Shown here: piece after piece, positions 2,696-10,171 of the stretch
Layout: every line of letters begins with the position of its first letter
Numbering within the stretch: position 1 is the first letter of the stretch
Assembly (NCBI GenBank): GCA_947378615.1
Contig: CANCKV010000028.1
Span: 1 to 12,828, forward strand
Direction of reading: 5' to 3'
Source: Chitinophagaceae bacterium
GTDB lineage: Bacteria; Bacteroidota; Bacteroidia; Chitinophagales; Chitinophagaceae
Length of the DNA stretch: 12,828 bases
The notes under the pieces: generated by a model
Told to the model about the DNA's origin: nothing
Databases searched by the model: none
What the model saw: the letters and a program-made list of their open reading frames with translations, nothing else
Program-made: the position numbers and the translations under genes

Positions 2696-2905
2696 GGAAT
2701 GCTTGATGTAGAGTTAAAAAACTATTTGTTCTTTAAATTTTGTAAAAAAAAATAGTTAATCATTTATCATCTTAAATTAAAGATAAAAAAAGTCTTATTA
2801 TCATTAATTAGTAAAAGAAATTATTATTTTTCTTAGAAAAGAAGATATAAATCCGTTATTTGTAAAATAAATTTCATTTTAAATAGTACTCTTCAATAAA
2901 AAAAT
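2696..2905. other. AT-rich intergenic region before the PARIS-like pair
   Basis: This 210-bp stretch has no plausible gene. It holds an 8-bp inverted repeat, aactattt at 2720-2727 and aaatagtt at 2750-2757, with a 22-nt loop and no clean T tract, so it is at best a weak terminator for the peroxidase gene. A TTTG at 2859-2862 lies 21 nt before TAGTACTC (2884-2891), the right spacing for a Bacteroidota promoter but a poor match to TAnnTTTG. By eye it is among the most AT-rich parts of the window. Confidence 0.5.
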
Positions 2906-4159
2906 ATGTTTAGACTAAATTTCATAAAACTAAAAGGATTTAAAGACCCGGACAGAGAAGTTACAGTGGAATTTTCAAAAGAGCCAATAACAGTTATTTA
3001 TGGAGAAAATGGTTGTGGCAAAACAACATTATTGAAAGTTCTATATGCAATTTTTAAGAATGACTTGGTATATTTAGATAATGAACATATTTCAAAAGTT
3101 ATCCTTGGATATTCATTGGAAAATAAAGAAGAAAAGGAAATTAGCATTATCCTTGAAAAAGATAGAGATGGATTTGGAAGTAGTATTTTAGGAGACATTG
3201 GAGACCTTGATAACTTAACTTCAATATTGTTTGGTGTAAATAGAGGATTGGTTTCTACAGATATATCTATAAATGAAAATTTATTGAAATCAAACTTTCC
3301 ATCGGAATCAAGCAAATTAATTAAATATTTCTTTTCTCACCGTGATGAAATGATTGCTCAAAAAGAAAAGTTAGAAATTAATACGGACTTTTCAGGCGAG
3401 AATCATATTTTAGTTGATAATATAGGAATTGACAGAATAGAATCAATAATAATAAAAGAATATCGTGCTGCACAAAGGGATATATCTGAAAAAGTGAAAA
3501 ACGCATTTTTAAACACTATTTCAAATGCAGTAGATATTGAATTAAACACAAAGGAGTATCCCCTGCCTGACGAATTTGAGAATAGATTGGAAAAAATAAG
3601 ACCAACGTTAATTTCTTTGGTTGAAAAATTAGACAAATCAACTGTACAAACTCAATTACTTGATTATTTGCATCATGGAACAAAGAAAGCTATTTCAGAG
3701 AGTAAAATTTTTAGGGCATTACTGGTAAATATTTTGGAAAAAGTAGAAGAAGTTAATCCTCAATTGAAATCAATTGACAAATTAATTTCGATATTTAATA
3801 GCCATTTGTATAAAAACAAGAAACTTGTTGTTACTGATGAAGAGATTTACATTGATTGTGCAAATTTAGAATCAAAACAGAGCAAAGATGTACATGATAA
3901 AAATAAAAAAGTGCATGATTTAAATAAGCTTTCAAGTGGGGAAAGACATTTATTGGTATTTCTTACCCTGTTTTTAGTAATAGGTAGGGGTCGAAACTTT
4001 TTTATTATTGATGAACCTGAGATTTCCTTAAATATGAAATGGCAAAGAGAATTATTGCCCTTATTAAGTGAATTAAGTCCAAACTCTCAAATAATAGTTG
4101 CTACTCATAGCCCTAGCATTGCATCAAATAACTCCAACTATTTAGTCGAAATGTTATAA
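2906..4159 (+). CDS. ariA: PARIS AriA-like ABC-type (AAA_15/AAA_21) ATPase
   Basis: A 417-residue soluble ATPase of the SMC/Rad50-like ABC class. Visible motifs: Walker A GENGCGKTT (K39), an ABC signature LSSGERH (S344-G345-E346), Walker B FFIIDEPEIS (D369, E370) with the D-loop after it, and the switch histidine in VATHSPS (H401). Residues 100-330 form a charged, largely helical insert. The protein ends right after the ATPase core, so unlike OLD-family nucleases it lacks its own TOPRIM domain; that domain is encoded by the next gene, 3 bases downstream. In PARIS, AriA forms a multimer that holds the AriB nuclease until a phage anti-restriction protein such as Ocr triggers release. That role is inferred from architecture. 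The start ATG has little Shine-Dalgarno support, as is common in this phylum. The assignment to this ATPase class is sure; the PARIS subtype needs a profile search. Confidence 0.75.
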   Translation: MFRLNFIKLKGFKDPDREVTVEFSKEPITVIYGENGCGKTTLLKVLYAIFKNDLVYLDNEHISKVILGYSLENKEEKEISIILEKDRDGFGSSILGDIGDLDNLTSILFGVNRGLVSTDISINENLLKSNFPSESSKLIKYFFSHRDEMIAQKEKLEINTDFSGENHILVDNIGIDRIESIIIKEYRAAQRDISEKVKNAFLNTISNAVDIELNTKEYPLPDEFENRLEKIRPTLISLVEKLDKSTVQTQLLDYLHHGTKKAISESKIFRALLVNILEKVEEVNPQLKSIDKLISIFNSHLYKNKKLVVTDEEIYIDCANLESKQSKDVHDKNKKVHDLNKLSSGERHLLVFLTLFLVIGRGRNFFIIDEPEISLNMKWQRELLPLLSELSPNSQIIVATHSPSIASNNSNYLVEML

Positions 4160-4162
4160 ACT

Positions 4163-5077
4163 ATGGGACTCAAGTATAATTTAAATGATGCACTCAACAA
4201 GGCAAGAATGACTAGTGAAGCTATGTTAATTGTTGAGGGTAAGGATGACTGTCAGATTTACTTTGAAATGGCAAAAATTGCACTGAAAAATATTTTTATT
4301 TATCAAGTAAATGAATTTGAAAACTATGAAGCGGGATGCACAGGCGTTGTCAAGTGTATGGAAACACTACAGCCCAAATTTATTGAAAGGTTTGATAATA
4401 TTAATTGGGTATTAGGTATTATTGATAGGGATATGAGGTTCTACAGAGGGGAAATTCCAAATAATCTTAAAGGCTTATTCATTACAAAATACTATTCCAT
4501 TGAATCATACTTTGCCACTGCAAATAACTTAAAGAAGCTTCTCACAAAGATTACTTATATATTAGAAAAAGACATTCAGCAGGAACACATTGATATAATT
4601 GAAGACAATTTTAAAATATCTATAGACCAACTTTACTTGATTTCATTGGAAGCTTTTAAAAATGCCTGTAGTAGTGGTTATGATAAACTATTAGGTTACG
4701 ATGATTCCCATGGAAAAATTACTGAACAAGGTTTCTTAAACTATATTTTACCGATATTAAAAGCAAGGGAGTCTTTATTGCAACAATTTGCAGACACAAA
4801 GAATGTCAAAATTGAAGATATTAAATTGATTGCTAAAGGGAAATGGTATTTGCATTGGTATGTAAAAAGAGCTTTTTTTGTGATTAAGCAGTTAAAGGGA
4901 AAGTGTAAAAATAAAGATATACCTCAATGCCGTTCTTGTATGGTTGAAAATTACAATGAGTGTTTGTTCGGTCTTAAAAGTAGTTTTACAGAAGAACAAC
5001 TTCACAATGAGATGCTTAACTTTATTGATAAAGCAGAATGTGCAGATATTATTGCTGCAGTATCAGTACTAAATTAG
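4163..5077 (+). CDS. ariB: PARIS AriB-like DUF4435 / TOPRIM nuclease
   Basis: A 304-residue protein with the DUF4435 layout. MLIVEGKDD near the N terminus supplies the TOPRIM glutamate (E25), LGIIDRDMR gives the D-x-D pair (D88, D90), and YYSIESYF (E114) is the conserved segment that follows in this family. In characterised PARIS the freed AriB dimerises and acts as a toxic nuclease that cleaves host tRNA-Lys, stopping phage growth. All the acidic residues expected for catalysis are present, so the effector looks intact. Toward the C terminus there is a regular cysteine cluster, C248-x7-C256-x2-C259-x7-C267, which could bind zinc. The start lies 3 bases after the ariA-like stop, so the two are surely co-transcribed. 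Other AAA/DUF4435 defence pairs exist, so the exact system name is slightly less certain than the domain call. Confidence 0.78.
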   Translation: MGLKYNLNDALNKARMTSEAMLIVEGKDDCQIYFEMAKIALKNIFIYQVNEFENYEAGCTGVVKCMETLQPKFIERFDNINWVLGIIDRDMRFYRGEIPNNLKGLFITKYYSIESYFATANNLKKLLTKITYILEKDIQQEHIDIIEDNFKISIDQLYLISLEAFKNACSSGYDKLLGYDDSHGKITEQGFLNYILPILKARESLLQQFADTKNVKIEDIKLIAKGKWYLHWYVKRAFFVIKQLKGKCKNKDIPQCRSCMVENYNECLFGLKSSFTEEQLHNEMLNFIDKAECADIIAAVSVLN

Positions 5078-5200
5078 AATCATTTTTTTTCCACTTGAAC
5101 AACGTCCTTGATTATTCAAAGAATAAGATAACAATACTTATTGCTTTAATTATTGGGAAACTTATTCATAAAATAAAATAAAGCATCTTCTATATTTTAG

Positions 5201-5232
5201 TTTGACTACAAACTTTATATACTTTACTTTTA
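5201..5232 (+). promoter_or_regulatory. Candidate Bacteroidota-type promoter of the helicase gene
   Basis: TTTG (5201-5204) is followed after 20 nt by TACTTTTA (5225-5232), matching the TAnnTTTG box at five of six fixed positions with ideal spacing. The predicted transcript would begin about at the ATG (5240), implying a leaderless or nearly leaderless message. No other good promoter is seen in the 162-bp gap after the ariB-like gene. Confidence 0.4.
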
Positions 5233-5239
5233 CCCGATT

Positions 5240-7777
5240 ATGGTTACCGAACAAAATACCTTATTTCGTCTTGCGGCAGAATACGTACAATTTACCAACG
5301 AAAATATTTTCCTTACAGGTAAAGCAGGTACCGGCAAGACGACATTTCTTAGATATATTAAAGAAAATAGTGGCAAGGAATGTGCAATTGTTGCTCCTAC
5401 AGGTGTTGCCGCAATCAATGCTGGTGGTACCACTATACACTCCTTTTTCCAATTGCCATTTACCCCATTTATTCCAGGCCCGCTAAAAAGCTCATTCGAT
5501 ATGAGAGACGTTCATCAACAAGATGAGAAGATGATGGACAAGCATCATTTGTTAGGTAGAATCAAATTAAATCGTGAAAAAAGAGAACTAATAAGAAATG
5601 TAGAATTGCTGATAATAGATGAGATAAGTATGGTTCGTTGTGATACTTTGGACGCTATAGATACGGTAATGCGTCACTTTAGAGGAAGATTGAATGAACC
5701 TTTTGGAGGAGCACAAGTTTTATTGATTGGGGATATGCATCAATTGCCACCCGTTATTCCTAACGAAGAATGGGAAATGTTGAATCAGTTTTACAGTAGT
5801 CCCTATTTTTTTAGTAGTAAGGTAGCTGAAATGCAGCCTCCGGTATATATAGAATTAGAAAAGATTTATCGGCAGAGTGACCCACAATTTATTGATGTGC
5901 TTAATAAAGTACGGAATCATAAGATGGATGAAGAGGCGATGGAAATTTTAAGAAGTAGATATAATCCATCCTTTTCTACCCGTGATAACGAAGGATATAT
6001 TACCCTTACAACACATAATAACAAGGCTTTTACAATTAATCAGAGTGGTCTGCAAAACATCATTGCAGCCGCTACGCTTTATAAGGCAACTATTGAAGGC
6101 GACTTTAGTGAGAAAGCCTATCCTGCTGAGATGGACTTGCAGTTGAAGGTTGGTGCACAGGTAATGTTCATTAAGAATGATAAAGAGAAAATCAGGCGTT
6201 ACTATAATGGTAAGATTGGAACTATCACAAAGATGGATGACATTTCTGTGTATGTTCAATGTTCCGATTCGGACAAACCTATTCCTGTAATGAAAGAGAA
6301 GTGGGAAAACATACGATATACGCTTAATCAAACTACACAAAAAATAGAAGAGGAGGTGATAGGTTCCTTTACTCAATTCCCACTTCGATTGGCTTGGGCA
6401 ATCACAATTCATAAGAGTCAAGGTCTGACATTTGAGAAGGCACTCGTTGATGCGGGAAGTGCATTTGCACCGGGTCAGGTTTATGTGGCATTGAGTCGTT
6501 GTACTTCTTTGGAAGGACTCGTGTTGCAAAGCATGATTACTAGTAATAGTCTATATACCGACGAACGAATATTGGAATTCGATAGGAGTAAAAGTAATGC
6601 TGATGCTTTAGCGAAGAACCTTTCTTTTGGCAGACAGATTTATTTGGAGAAGACTATCATTAATTTGTTCAACTTTAATAAGGCGGTGGGTGCGGTTGAA
6701 GGACTACATAAATTTATTTCAGAACATCATAGTGCTTTTAATAAAGAAACGCTATTGTGGGTAGATGGTATTGCTGAGAAAATAAAAGGATTGCAAGAGG
6801 TTGGCGACAAATTTGAAAATCAACTGAGGCAATTATTTATGACTTTCAATAAGGAAGTAGTCAATGAAAGGGTGAAGAAGGCAGCCGTACATTTCTCAGG
6901 GATATTGAATCAATTGCTTGAAACTATTCCTCGTTCCCCTGCAACTACTGATAGTCGTAATTATGCAAAAGAATATTTTACTGAGCTGACTTCTACTTAT
7001 GCGGAACTTTTTGCGAAAAAGAAACTGATTGATACTGCTGCAAGTGGTTTTGATTTAGAAGTATATCAACTTCAAAAGTCAGTTATTCGAGTTCCTTTGC
7101 TAACGGTGAATGCCTATTCGGGTTCGTCGCCAAACAAAAGAACAAATAGTCCACACCCAATTTTGCATCGGCAATTGATGGATTTGAGAGATCAGATTGT
7201 AGCTAAAGATAATCTACCTATTTTTTTTGTGGCAGGAACGAGTACTATCGATGAAATGGCGAAGTTTATTCCATTGACACCTTACGATTTGATGAAGATA
7301 AAAGGCTTTGGAGAAAAGAAAGTAGAGAAATATGGGCAACAATTCCTTGAAATTATTCAAGCCTATGTAAAAGAAAAAGGACTTGATACTCATATCAAAG
7401 AAAAGGCAATTGAAATCAAGACAAGTGAAAAAAATGAAAAAGGCGAACATGTAACTAATAAGGAAAGTTCACAAGGGCAAACTTTAAAACTCTATCTCGA
7501 GGGGATTAGTATTCAAGAGATTGCCAAACAAAGGAATTTTAGTATTAGTACTATCGAAGGACATTTGGCACAGCTTGTCAAGACAAATGAAGTGGATGTT
7601 TTTAAGTTGCTGAGTGAAGAAAAAGTGAATGCAATTGTAAAAGCAATTGAAACGATTGAAACAGATTCTGCCACTTCATTATTAGAATATTTGGGTAGTG
7701 ATTACACCTACACGGAACTAAGGTTTGGCATAAATTATTCGAAGTGGTTGAAGGAAAAGCTGTTGACACAAAGTTAA
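5240..7777 (+). CDS. Pif1/RecD-like superfamily 1B helicase with HRDC and HTH_40 domains
   Basis: An 845-residue cytoplasmic DNA helicase. Domain order: an AAA/Pif1-type motor at about residues 5-430, with Walker A FLTGKAGTGKTT (K33), Walker B LLIIDEIS (D127, E128), the GDMHQLPPV motif III, and the late helicase motifs ITIHKSQGLTF (H391 to G395) and VYVALSRCTSLEGL; then a linker; an HRDC domain at about 639-712 containing IKGFGEKKVEKYG; a charged spacer; and a C-terminal helix-turn-helix region of HTH_40 type from about 743, as on some RecQ-like helicases. Pif1 enzymes unwind 5' to 3' and resolve forks, R-loops and G-quadruplexes; HRDC and HTH add nucleic-acid binding. This fusion is common in Bacteroidota, so it is probably a core genome-maintenance gene rather than part of the defence locus. 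The start is supported because the ATP-binding motif begins about 23 residues in, usual for the family. Confidence 0.9.
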   Translation: MVTEQNTLFRLAAEYVQFTNENIFLTGKAGTGKTTFLRYIKENSGKECAIVAPTGVAAINAGGTTIHSFFQLPFTPFIPGPLKSSFDMRDVHQQDEKMMDKHHLLGRIKLNREKRELIRNVELLIIDEISMVRCDTLDAIDTVMRHFRGRLNEPFGGAQVLLIGDMHQLPPVIPNEEWEMLNQFYSSPYFFSSKVAEMQPPVYIELEKIYRQSDPQFIDVLNKVRNHKMDEEAMEILRSRYNPSFSTRDNEGYITLTTHNNKAFTINQSGLQNIIAAATLYKATIEGDFSEKAYPAEMDLQLKVGAQVMFIKNDKEKIRRYYNGKIGTITKMDDISVYVQCSDSDKPIPVMKEKWENIRYTLNQTTQKIEEEVIGSFTQFPLRLAWAITIHKSQGLTFEKALVDAGSAFAPGQVYVALSRCTSLEGLVLQSMITSNSLYTDERILEFDRSKSNADALAKNLSFGRQIYLEKTIINLFNFNKAVGAVEGLHKFISEHHSAFNKETLLWVDGIAEKIKGLQEVGDKFENQLRQLFMTFNKEVVNERVKKAAVHFSGILNQLLETIPRSPATTDSRNYAKEYFTELTSTYAELFAKKKLIDTAASGFDLEVYQLQKSVIRVPLLTVNAYSGSSPNKRTNSPHPILHRQLMDLRDQIVAKDNLPIFFVAGTSTIDEMAKFIPLTPYDLMKIKGFGEKKVEKYGQQFLEIIQAYVKEKGLDTHIKEKAIEIKTSEKNEKGEHVTNKESSQGQTLKLYLEGISIQEIAKQRNFSISTIEGHLAQLVKTNEVDVFKLLSEEKVNAIVKAIETIETDSATSLLEYLGSDYTYTELRFGINYSKWLKEKLLTQS

Positions 7778-7863
7778 AAATTGTGGATAAACTACCTAAA
7801 CAGTACATTATTTCAAGAATTTTACCTAAAAGTTATCCCTACACATAATTTTATCGCTTTCTA

Positions 7864-7893
7864 TACGTTATATATATAACCGTACTTTTTTTT
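7864..7893 (+). terminator. AT-rich palindrome plus T8 tract: terminator of the helicase gene or promoter/operator of the next
   Basis: TACG (7864-7867), the perfect 12-bp palindrome TTATATATATAA (7868-7879), one unpaired C and CGTA (7881-7884) form a 16-bp near-perfect inverted repeat, followed after one base by eight T residues. This resembles an intrinsic terminator, though the stem is almost all A/T and the T run ends only two bases before the next ATG. An alternative reading is a promoter: TTTC (7858-7861), 21 nt, TACTTTTT (7883-7890), with the palindrome inside the spacer as an operator. The sequence alone does not decide. Confidence 0.4.
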
Positions 7894-7895
7894 GA

Positions 7896-9248
7896 ATGCA
7901 ACAGCCCATGTTACATACAGGCAATTTTCATAATGGCATCTTAAGGCGTGCTGCCTTGTTGTGCTTATTATTTGCGTGTACTGTTTTGGCTTTTTCTCAG
8001 GATCAAACTTCTATTTCCTGTAAAGTAAAAGGATATAGGGAGAATGGAATTTACGGGTCGAAAGATAGTAAGGTTGCCTACATTTTGAAGTTAAAGAATG
8101 TTATTAATGACAATCAAAAAGGGAATGTCTATGTTAATGTGGTCAATGATTTGGGCAACTCAGTTTACAATCAAGATATAGCCCTTTTTATCAAACCAAT
8201 TAGTACTTACAATAAAGAAGTTGAAATAGACATAGCCAAATTACCCACTGGATTTTATAACATTTATTTCACCATCAACACCAATCATTTTAGTCAGACA
8301 CTTACCTACGTATTTGCTGTGGAACCAGAGAAGATAAAACCGACAGGCATTCGGCCAGGCGACTTTACTACCTTTTGGGATAACGCCCGCAATGAATTGA
8401 CGAATATTAATCCTTCCTATAAAGTTACCCGAAGGGGAGATATTTCTACAAATAGCAATGATATCTACTTAATAGAATTTCAATCAATTGGTCATGTTTC
8501 TATCAGGGGATGGTTGAGCGTTCCTAAAAGGCATAGCAAGAATCCTGTTTTGTATCGTTTACCAGATTATGCGACTACTGCTTCACCTGAATCGAGGAAT
8601 GATATGGCAGTATTCTGTTTGGATGCTAGGGGATTCGGAAATAGTGCAGATATGGGCAGACAAGACTTTAGCACTTATTTAGTGAACGGCCTTAATACTC
8701 GTGATAGCTATATTTATCGTGCAGAATACATGGATGCCTTACGTGGATTGGATTTCATTTATAAAAATACCGACTTACACTTAGATGAAAACAAAGTAAT
8801 TCTCACTGGAATTGGACAAGGTGCCTCGATAGCATCTGTTATTGCAGGAATGGACAACAAGGTAAAGGGTTTGATTTTAGATAGACCGACACTAATGGAT
8901 TTGCGAACTATGTTTGCAATAGGGGAAGTTAAGTCGCAAGTACCATGGCCTATTAACGCTTTAAAGTTTTATTGTAGCACCAATAAAATTTATCTAGACA
9001 ATTTTTTTAAAGTTTGGGATTATTTCGATCCACTTAGTTTTGCTCCGATGATTAAATGCCCAATATTGATAGGCATTTCATTAAAAAGCAGCGTTAGTCC
9101 TCCTCAATGTGCCTACAATTTTTACAATCAGGTATTGAGTAGTAAACGAGAAATTTATAGTTGTCCTGACAATGAAGCAGGAATTGACGAATCATTCTAT
9201 ATTTTTGAAAACAATTGGATAAAGGAAACACTGAAGTTGCCTTTATAA
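7896..9248 (+). CDS. Secreted AXE1-fold alpha/beta-hydrolase homologue, catalytic triad apparently lost
   Basis: A 450-residue exported protein: basic residues near 17, hydrophobic 19-33, signal cleavage after about S34 or Q35. An alternative ATG at 7908 would leave the signal intact. Residues 36-145 look like a beta-sandwich accessory domain. From about 150 it follows the acetyl xylan esterase / cephalosporin-C deacetylase (AXE1) family: RPGDFTTFWDNA, IRGWLSVP, the oxyanion-side DARGFG (R245), then LTGIGQGASIA, SPPQCAYNFYN. Against the family pattern the nucleophile serine of GGSQGG is glycine (G307), the aspartate of L-x-D-x-x-C-P-P is serine (S398), and the terminal histidine of the YxxHEGG region aligns with asparagine (N426). 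So the fold is kept but the esterase is probably inactive and may bind carbohydrate or a partner. The barrel gene follows after 26 bp, probably the same transcript. The family call is good; the role is unknown. Confidence 0.75.
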   Translation: MQQPMLHTGNFHNGILRRAALLCLLFACTVLAFSQDQTSISCKVKGYRENGIYGSKDSKVAYILKLKNVINDNQKGNVYVNVVNDLGNSVYNQDIALFIKPISTYNKEVEIDIAKLPTGFYNIYFTINTNHFSQTLTYVFAVEPEKIKPTGIRPGDFTTFWDNARNELTNINPSYKVTRRGDISTNSNDIYLIEFQSIGHVSIRGWLSVPKRHSKNPVLYRLPDYATTASPESRNDMAVFCLDARGFGNSADMGRQDFSTYLVNGLNTRDSYIYRAEYMDALRGLDFIYKNTDLHLDENKVILTGIGQGASIASVIAGMDNKVKGLILDRPTLMDLRTMFAIGEVKSQVPWPINALKFYCSTNKIYLDNFFKVWDYFDPLSFAPMIKCPILIGISLKSSVSPPQCAYNFYNQVLSSKREIYSCPDNEAGIDESFYIFENNWIKETLKLPL

Positions 9249-9274
9249 AGTACCCTTATTTATAAACATAAAAG

Positions 9275-10111
9275 ATGAAAAAACTTACTTTAATTATTAT
9301 TGCTACAATCGCTTTTATTCAGAGTTCTCGAGCGGGCTTTCCTATTGGATATGGACGCTATTTATTGATTCCTGGATATAACTATTATACAGCAAGTGGC
9401 TATTGGGGACCTAATGGCAACTACAATTCTTATGGTTCAGGCAACTTTAGTTCACACTATTTTAATTTATATGGTGGATATGGAATTAGTCGTCGATTGA
9501 ATTTTTTATATAATATTCCATTAGTAAATCAAGTGGATAATAATACAAACGGAAAAAATAAAATCTATTCAGCCTTTGCATTAGGAGATGCGAGCCTTGG
9601 ATTAAGTTATTTCTTCAATGACTTTGATGAATTAACACATGTGTGCCTAACAGGAAACCTGATTGTTCCTTTATACCAAAATCAGGGAACACCATATCCA
9701 AATATTGGGTATCAATCATTGGGCGTGGAGGCTAAATTAGGCTTCTCAGGTTCTGCAACTGGAGGATTTAGAAACCCCTATTATGATATTGAATTTGGAT
9801 TGAGGCAATATTTTGCAAGCGATGGACCATTTCAAGTATTTGCCAACATTACAGGAGGTGTTCCTGTAAGTGACGATTGGAAGATTAGTGGTACAATTAG
9901 TGGTATCAATTCAGTTAGTAGCACTTTAACCACTTCTACTACTCAAATCTACAACTATACAAAGTCATTTTATTATCTACGTCTTGCAGCAAATGCTGGA
10001 TATGTTGTTAATGAAAACTTATCTATTTGGGGTGGTGTATATACCGATATTGCGGGAAGAGGTGTTGGTAAAGGAAGTGGGCTATCTATTTCGGCAGTAA
10101 TTAAATACTAG
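9275..10111 (+). CDS. Outer-membrane beta-barrel protein (transporter-like, Phenol_MetA_deg-type fold)
   Basis: A 278-residue protein with a classic signal peptide (MKK, hydrophobic 4-15, SRA cleavage after residue 20). The mature part has alternating hydrophobic/polar strands rich in Gly, Tyr, Phe and Asn, with the family landmarks YGGYGISRRLNFLYNIPLV, ALGDASLGLSYFF and NENLSIWGGVYTD, and it ends in AVIKY, a C-terminal aromatic typical of barrels inserted by BAM. The length suits roughly 12 strands. Members of this group are often annotated only as transporter or OMP; the substrate is not known. It follows the AXE1-like gene by 26 bp on the same strand, so the secreted protein and this barrel may act together at the outer membrane (inference). 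Residues 196-216 or so carry a Ser/Thr-rich loop (SGTISGINSVSSTL and on) that includes a short imperfect direct repeat in the DNA. Confidence 0.75.
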   Translation: MKKLTLIIIATIAFIQSSRAGFPIGYGRYLLIPGYNYYTASGYWGPNGNYNSYGSGNFSSHYFNLYGGYGISRRLNFLYNIPLVNQVDNNTNGKNKIYSAFALGDASLGLSYFFNDFDELTHVCLTGNLIVPLYQNQGTPYPNIGYQSLGVEAKLGFSGSATGGFRNPYYDIEFGLRQYFASDGPFQVFANITGGVPVSDDWKISGTISGINSVSSTLTTSTTQIYNYTKSFYYLRLAANAGYVVNENLSIWGGVYTDIAGRGVGKGSGLSISAVIKY

Positions 10112-10171
10112 ATCTAGATACCCTCTAATTCTTCTATAAATGCTCAACTATAATTTTTATTTAATTTACAC

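Follow-up and report, generated by a model that had tools for sequence, protein, structure and literature searches.

A Divergent PARIS-Type AriA/AriB Gene Pair with a Cys4 Motif in a Bacteroidota Draft Genome

The AriA/AriB Pair and Its Motifs

The window, meaning the whole stretch of 12,828 nucleotides analysed here, is one entire contig (C28) of a Bacteroidota draft assembly (590 contigs, 67.7% complete). It contains two adjacent genes on the same strand, separated by 3 bases, for an ABC-type ATPase and a DUF4435 protein. Both open reading frames (ORFs) lie where an earlier note on this DNA had placed them, with the same gap. They constitute an intact, divergent PARIS-type pair and are called AriA-like and AriB-like here. 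The features of the pair are as follows.

2906..4159, plus strand: AriA-like ABC-type ATPase, 417 amino acids
3002..3028, plus strand: Walker A motif GENGCGKTT with K39, residues 33–41 (G33, N35, G36 and G38–T41 invariant in 8 of 8 rows; positions 34 and 37 variable)
3932..3943, plus strand: ABC signature SSGE, residues 343–346 (8 of 8)
4010..4015, plus strand: Walker B Asp369-Glu370 (8 of 8; in the hhalign alignment E370 corresponds to E393 of E. coli AriA)
4106..4108, plus strand: H-loop His401 (8 of 8)
4163..5077, plus strand: AriB-like DUF4435/TOPRIM effector, 304 amino acids
4235..4237, plus strand: TOPRIM Glu25 (8 of 8)
4424..4432, plus strand: TOPRIM Asp88-Arg-Asp90, DxD (D88 and D90, 8 of 8)
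4904..4963, plus strand: Cys4 motif C248-x7-C256-x2-C259-x7-C267, a putative metal site

The conservation counts refer to alignments of eight rows, the window included, for both proteins. The residues claimed earlier for the ATPase (K39, SGE 344–346, DE 369–370 and H401) and for the DUF4435 protein (E25, D88 and D90) are all there, without variation across the eight rows. The ATPase had been described as lacking a nuclease domain, and none of its 22 Pfam matches, as read, is a nuclease family. It had also been called somewhat short; E. coli AriA has 464 amino acids and is thus 47 longer. Part of the difference is a C-terminal tail after residue 440, which the window protein lacks and which lies outside the aligned part of the solved AriA chains. 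An insertion of about 13 residues, at residues ~320–334 before the signature motif, is missing from the seven aligned relatives.

Assignment to PARIS

Family profiles, profile–profile comparison, structure comparison and gene order all agree with the earlier identification of the pair as PARIS-like AriA/AriB, and the family assignment is firm. In Pfam the ATPase matches AAA_21 (75.9 bits) and AAA_15 (71.0 bits) best. Both scores exceed the PARIS detection limits of Rousset et al. (2022, PMC9122126), which are 32 bits for AAA_15, 27 bits for AAA_21 and 27 bits for DUF4435. In PADLOC the ATPase scores best with AriA (1e-28) and next best with PtuA (5.6e-21), and the DUF4435 protein matches AriB and no other family (43.8 bits, 7.6e-12). 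AriA and AriB are also the best families in all five related pairs to which PADLOC was applied. A sequence search of PDB returns E. coli AriA as the first match of the ATPase, at 59 bits. When the clade described below is compared with a three-row prototype group, profile against profile, the E-value is 1.2e-29 for AriA; for AriB it is 1e-9, in an alignment of residues 2–179 only. The solved AriA and AriB are the closest folds to the two window proteins (Foldseek, re-aligned by VIA-align). The PADLOC profiles, which the earlier note had proposed as a check, and the structure comparison point the same way, and the best profile match to another AAA/DUF4435 family, which it had named as contrary evidence, did not appear.

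The PARIS prototype of the E. coli P4-satellite type (PDB 8ux9, 8v45–8v49; locus L014) shares with the window an SMC/ABC-like ATPase gene followed by a TOPRIM gene, with the same folds and positions of catalytic motifs. The prototype genes overlap by 4 bases, whereas those of the window are 3 bases apart. The TOPRIM motif of the clade is DxD, in contrast to DRE (D88, E90) in the three-row prototype group; the solved chain 8v46_D has Ala in place of that Glu. The prototype also has no Cys4 motif.

Several points weigh against the assignment. Structural-alignment identity to the prototype is low, 11–13% for AriB and 18–28% for AriA; the earlier remark that the pair is diverged from the enterobacterial prototype is right. 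No AriB chain in PDB is found in sequence searches by the window AriB, alone or as a four-row profile. AriB residues 180–304, which include the Cys4 motif, fall outside the profile alignment. PADLOC profiles were applied to three of the ten window proteins, and the Pfam and NCBIfam matches of the window neighbours include, as read, no defence family. Finally, DUF4435, the sole Pfam family of the window AriB, scores 26.8 bits, 0.2 under the published limit. Five of seven clade relatives scanned pass this limit; L060 scores 21.2 bits and L008 has no match. No DUF4435 match is found in this Pfam library for the prototype AriB of L014 either, a protein nearly identical to the solved one, so the limit fails to distinguish members from non-members.

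Phylogeny and the Cys4 Motif

The ATPase–DUF4435 gene order is found again in nine other clade pairs, with BLAST identity to the window of 32–47% for the ATPase and 22–46% for the DUF4435 protein. In trees of 22 pairs, a single branch separates the ten clade rows from the rest for each protein (support 98/99 for AriA and 96/95 for AriB). These trees have several long branches, and the alignment behind the AriB tree included the Cys4 columns. The branching order within the clade, including the position of the window, is mostly unresolved.

The relatives are L006 (a Bacteroidia draft genome), L007 (Microscillaceae), L009 (Saprospiraceae), L060 (genome G726, of the window's order), L008 (Salirhabdus, Bacillota), L003, L004 and L076 (enterobacterial plasmids), and L074 (a P4-like satellite of E. 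coli). L006 corresponds to genome G098 (L002, L005, L016), which belongs to the window's order. The plasmid relatives occur in 4 of 72,556 records, and the three examined have transposases or an integrase nearby; as these three are near-copies, the ten rows represent about eight lineages. The L074 pair is flanked by the polarity suppression gene and the integrase at ssrA, the P4 slot occupied by the prototype PARIS in L014. It is present at ≥99% identity in 4 of 5,426 E. coli genomes, the L074 genome included.

Four cysteines spaced x7, x2 and x7–8 are present in nine of the ten clade AriBs, and in none of the 12 other DUF4435 partners examined. Judging from the sequence, this Cys4 motif most likely binds a metal, zinc, and most likely shapes the docking of AriB on AriA or on its substrate. 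The AriB of L009 (L009:6001-6924) has only the first cysteine and keeps the TOPRIM residues, and provides a natural test of the motif. Since it has lost three of the four cysteines, Cys4 is not indispensable within the clade. The Cys4 lineage is the one point here that may surprise a specialist.

Other pairs (L012, L013, L061–L066 and L075) also have an AAA and a DUF4435 gene side by side; unlike the window clade, they are outsiders in both trees and none has Cys4. Directly after three of them lies a GmrSD_N (DUF262) gene: L061:4757-8872 (G747), L064:3491-8006 (G672) and L066:4340-8843 (G726). This call is from Pfam for L061 and L064 and from sequence likeness for L066; L064 and L066 are close kin, and L061 is distinct. 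The AAA, DUF4435 and GmrSD_N genes may form one system of three, in which a PARIS-like pair is combined with a type IV restriction-like protein. In L075 (3279-5508), the AAA + DUF4435 pair has an integrase beside it; this E. coli element is located at a tRNA-Arg gene. Within the clade, a gene of the PDDEXK_4 nuclease superfamily is seen just upstream of the pair in L060 (L060:4249-5466). Another (L003:138-1208) is within 2.5 kb of the pair, on the opposite strand, with an IS1 gene between.

Distribution and Gene-Order Break

The pair is rare among relatives of the host. AriB is matched in none of 12 same-genus genomes, whereas the PIF1/HRDC helicase encoded directly downstream of the pair has a strong match in all 12 (partial in G003, residues 369–840 only). 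A wider draw gives AriB in 2 of 99 relatives, own genome counted, and the phylum search in 1 of 395, the window's own genome. With an alignment as query, 9 of 396 genomes of the order are matched, three of them strongly (own genome included), and 4 of 395 of the class, namely the own genome and three weak matches. Weak matches (E 5e-5 to 1e-3) were kept out of the clade count. They comprise six genomes and a second place in G726 in the order scan, and three genomes in the class scan, G218 being common to both. Seven places from the order scan were read: L060, a strong match, is in the clade, and L061–L066 are the outsider pairs mentioned above. The matches in G587, G191 and G837 lie outside these seven. 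Scanning the genome collection with the window AriB alone confirmed nothing; the alignment query instead gave four loci.

No AriB match is present in 50,697 records of a phage collection, and an IMG/VR scan gives no confirmed relative. With the window AriA a single phage record is matched, across 18% of the AriA length; the match is to L013, a P2-like pair that falls outside the clade.

The surroundings of the pair differ from those in the closest relative, G008.

2696..5190, no strand: stretch without counterpart in G008 contigs C78 and C197 (blastn and ORF comparison)

Positions 2–2695 of the window correspond to C78 and 5191–10112 to C197, and neither matches between them; the whole genome of G008 has no AriB match. 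The position of the pair at this gene-order break is consistent with its acquisition. As the flanks lie on separate G008 contigs, no clean empty site is seen there. The break may also be an assembly join. The GC content is 28.3% in 2696–5190 and 34.3% in the remaining window. At third codon positions, AriA has the lowest value of nine genes measured (0.213), and AriB (0.279) is within the range of the others (0.229–0.335). GC content is a weak sign of transfer.

Neighbouring Genes

The larger genes of the window are a 173-amino-acid ORF, an MbnP-like gene, an MbnH-like gene, the AriA/AriB-like pair, the helicase gene, an acetyl-xylan-esterase-like gene, a 278-amino-acid ORF and citrate synthase. 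The MbnP-like and MbnH-like ORFs (640–2695) overlap by 38 bases, counted from the first start codon. They are ~94% identical in G008, where they are near recA (judged from the protein start). The window contains no tRNA, and nothing in it matches Rfam at the gathering score. Promoters are not in excess between 2690 and 5250, with 15 sites counted and 13.9 in shuffled sequence. On the minus strand, ariA contains two terminator-like sites that overlap each other, where 0.5 would be expected.

Proposed Mechanism and Alternative Explanations

In PARIS, AriB is a tRNA-cutting nuclease restrained by an AriA assembly. A complex of AriA with Ocr is present in PDB. In Rousset et al. (2022, PMC9122126), PARIS of E. 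coli B185 requires both genes and the predicted catalytic residues for defence. It stops growth upon infection, is triggered by the anti-restriction protein Ocr, and is independent of a type I system. A distant homologue, PARIS-1 of E. coli O42, is reported there to be active when induced.

Because both parts of the window pair are homologous to PARIS, it should work likewise in outline. Following the E. coli system, AriA would assemble and keep AriB in check until a phage protein, probably a restriction blocker, bound AriA and released AriB. The freed AriB would then cut a nucleic acid that the cell cannot do without, probably tRNA; growth would halt before the phage matures. The defence function, and with it abortive infection, a phage trigger and the cleavage of tRNA, are inferred from this analogy. 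HsdS-domain matches are found on three contigs of the host genome; therefore phages attacking this host could gain from anti-restriction proteins. The divergence is too great for the specifics of trigger and target to be transferred from E. coli PARIS. On balance, the pair quite probably represents a divergent lineage of PARIS and acts by abortive infection.

The likeliest alternative keeps the same switch architecture with another trigger and substrate, for instance DNA, as for OLD or Gabija nucleases, or a different RNA; both would be determined by the Cys4 region together with DxD. The restriction of Cys4 to the clade, the DxD in place of the prototype motif, and the OLD C-terminal region as the next structural row of AriB after PARIS would fit it. 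So would AriA residues 112–160, which are mostly poorly modelled and poorly conserved. It is opposed by the overall fold and partner, which are those of PARIS, and by the cysteines missing from L009. It is a real possibility, but less likely than not.

It is improbable that the pair is a horizontally acquired relic that has lost its function, at a rearrangement point or assembly join. The gene order broken on both sides relative to G008 and the fragmented, incomplete draft would suit such a relic. Against it, both frames are open, all catalytic motifs are intact, and the same residues are conserved in relatives.

A Septu- or retron-type (PtuA) or OLD-type ATPase–nuclease pair is very unlikely, since AriA outscores these in profile and fold. 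PtuA is paired with the HNH nuclease PtuB, and PDB titles likewise pair the two; the window partner is instead a protein matched by AriB alone in PADLOC and by DUF4435 alone in Pfam, and membership in Septu or retron PtuAB was rejected. The OLD family combines an ABC ATPase part and TOPRIM in one polypeptide. The window AriB has the TOPRIM core in common with OLD nucleases (Burkholderia OLD C-terminal region, 6nk8), but here the ATPase and the TOPRIM protein are two separate ORFs, and OLD membership was rejected as well.

That the ATPase has a housekeeping role together with its TOPRIM partner, for instance in DNA repair, is barely credible, and this reading was set aside: the pair lies directly upstream of the helicase gene, but AriB is missing from the same-genus genomes that have the helicase. 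Several clade relatives lie on plasmids or a satellite. The neighbours of the relatives read vary from case to case, and several of these neighbours are mobile, so that the constant housekeeping set named in the earlier note as contrary evidence did not appear.

Implications for PARIS

It can be tentatively speculated that the window pair belongs to a separate PARIS lineage, spread among Bacteroidota, Bacillota, and enterobacterial plasmids and satellites. In it, the C-terminal Cys4 zinc site of AriB, together with DxD, might recognise a different substrate or AriA surface, so that other phage proteins would be sensed and a different RNA cut. The comparison with PARIS is useful as its phage trigger, Ocr, is known and solved structures exist. 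As the L074 pair resides in an E. coli satellite, the Cys4 lineage can be tested with a standard panel of coliphages. A far relative of PARIS with the same two-part layout and a different effector tip would separate the constant switch from the parts that set trigger and target.
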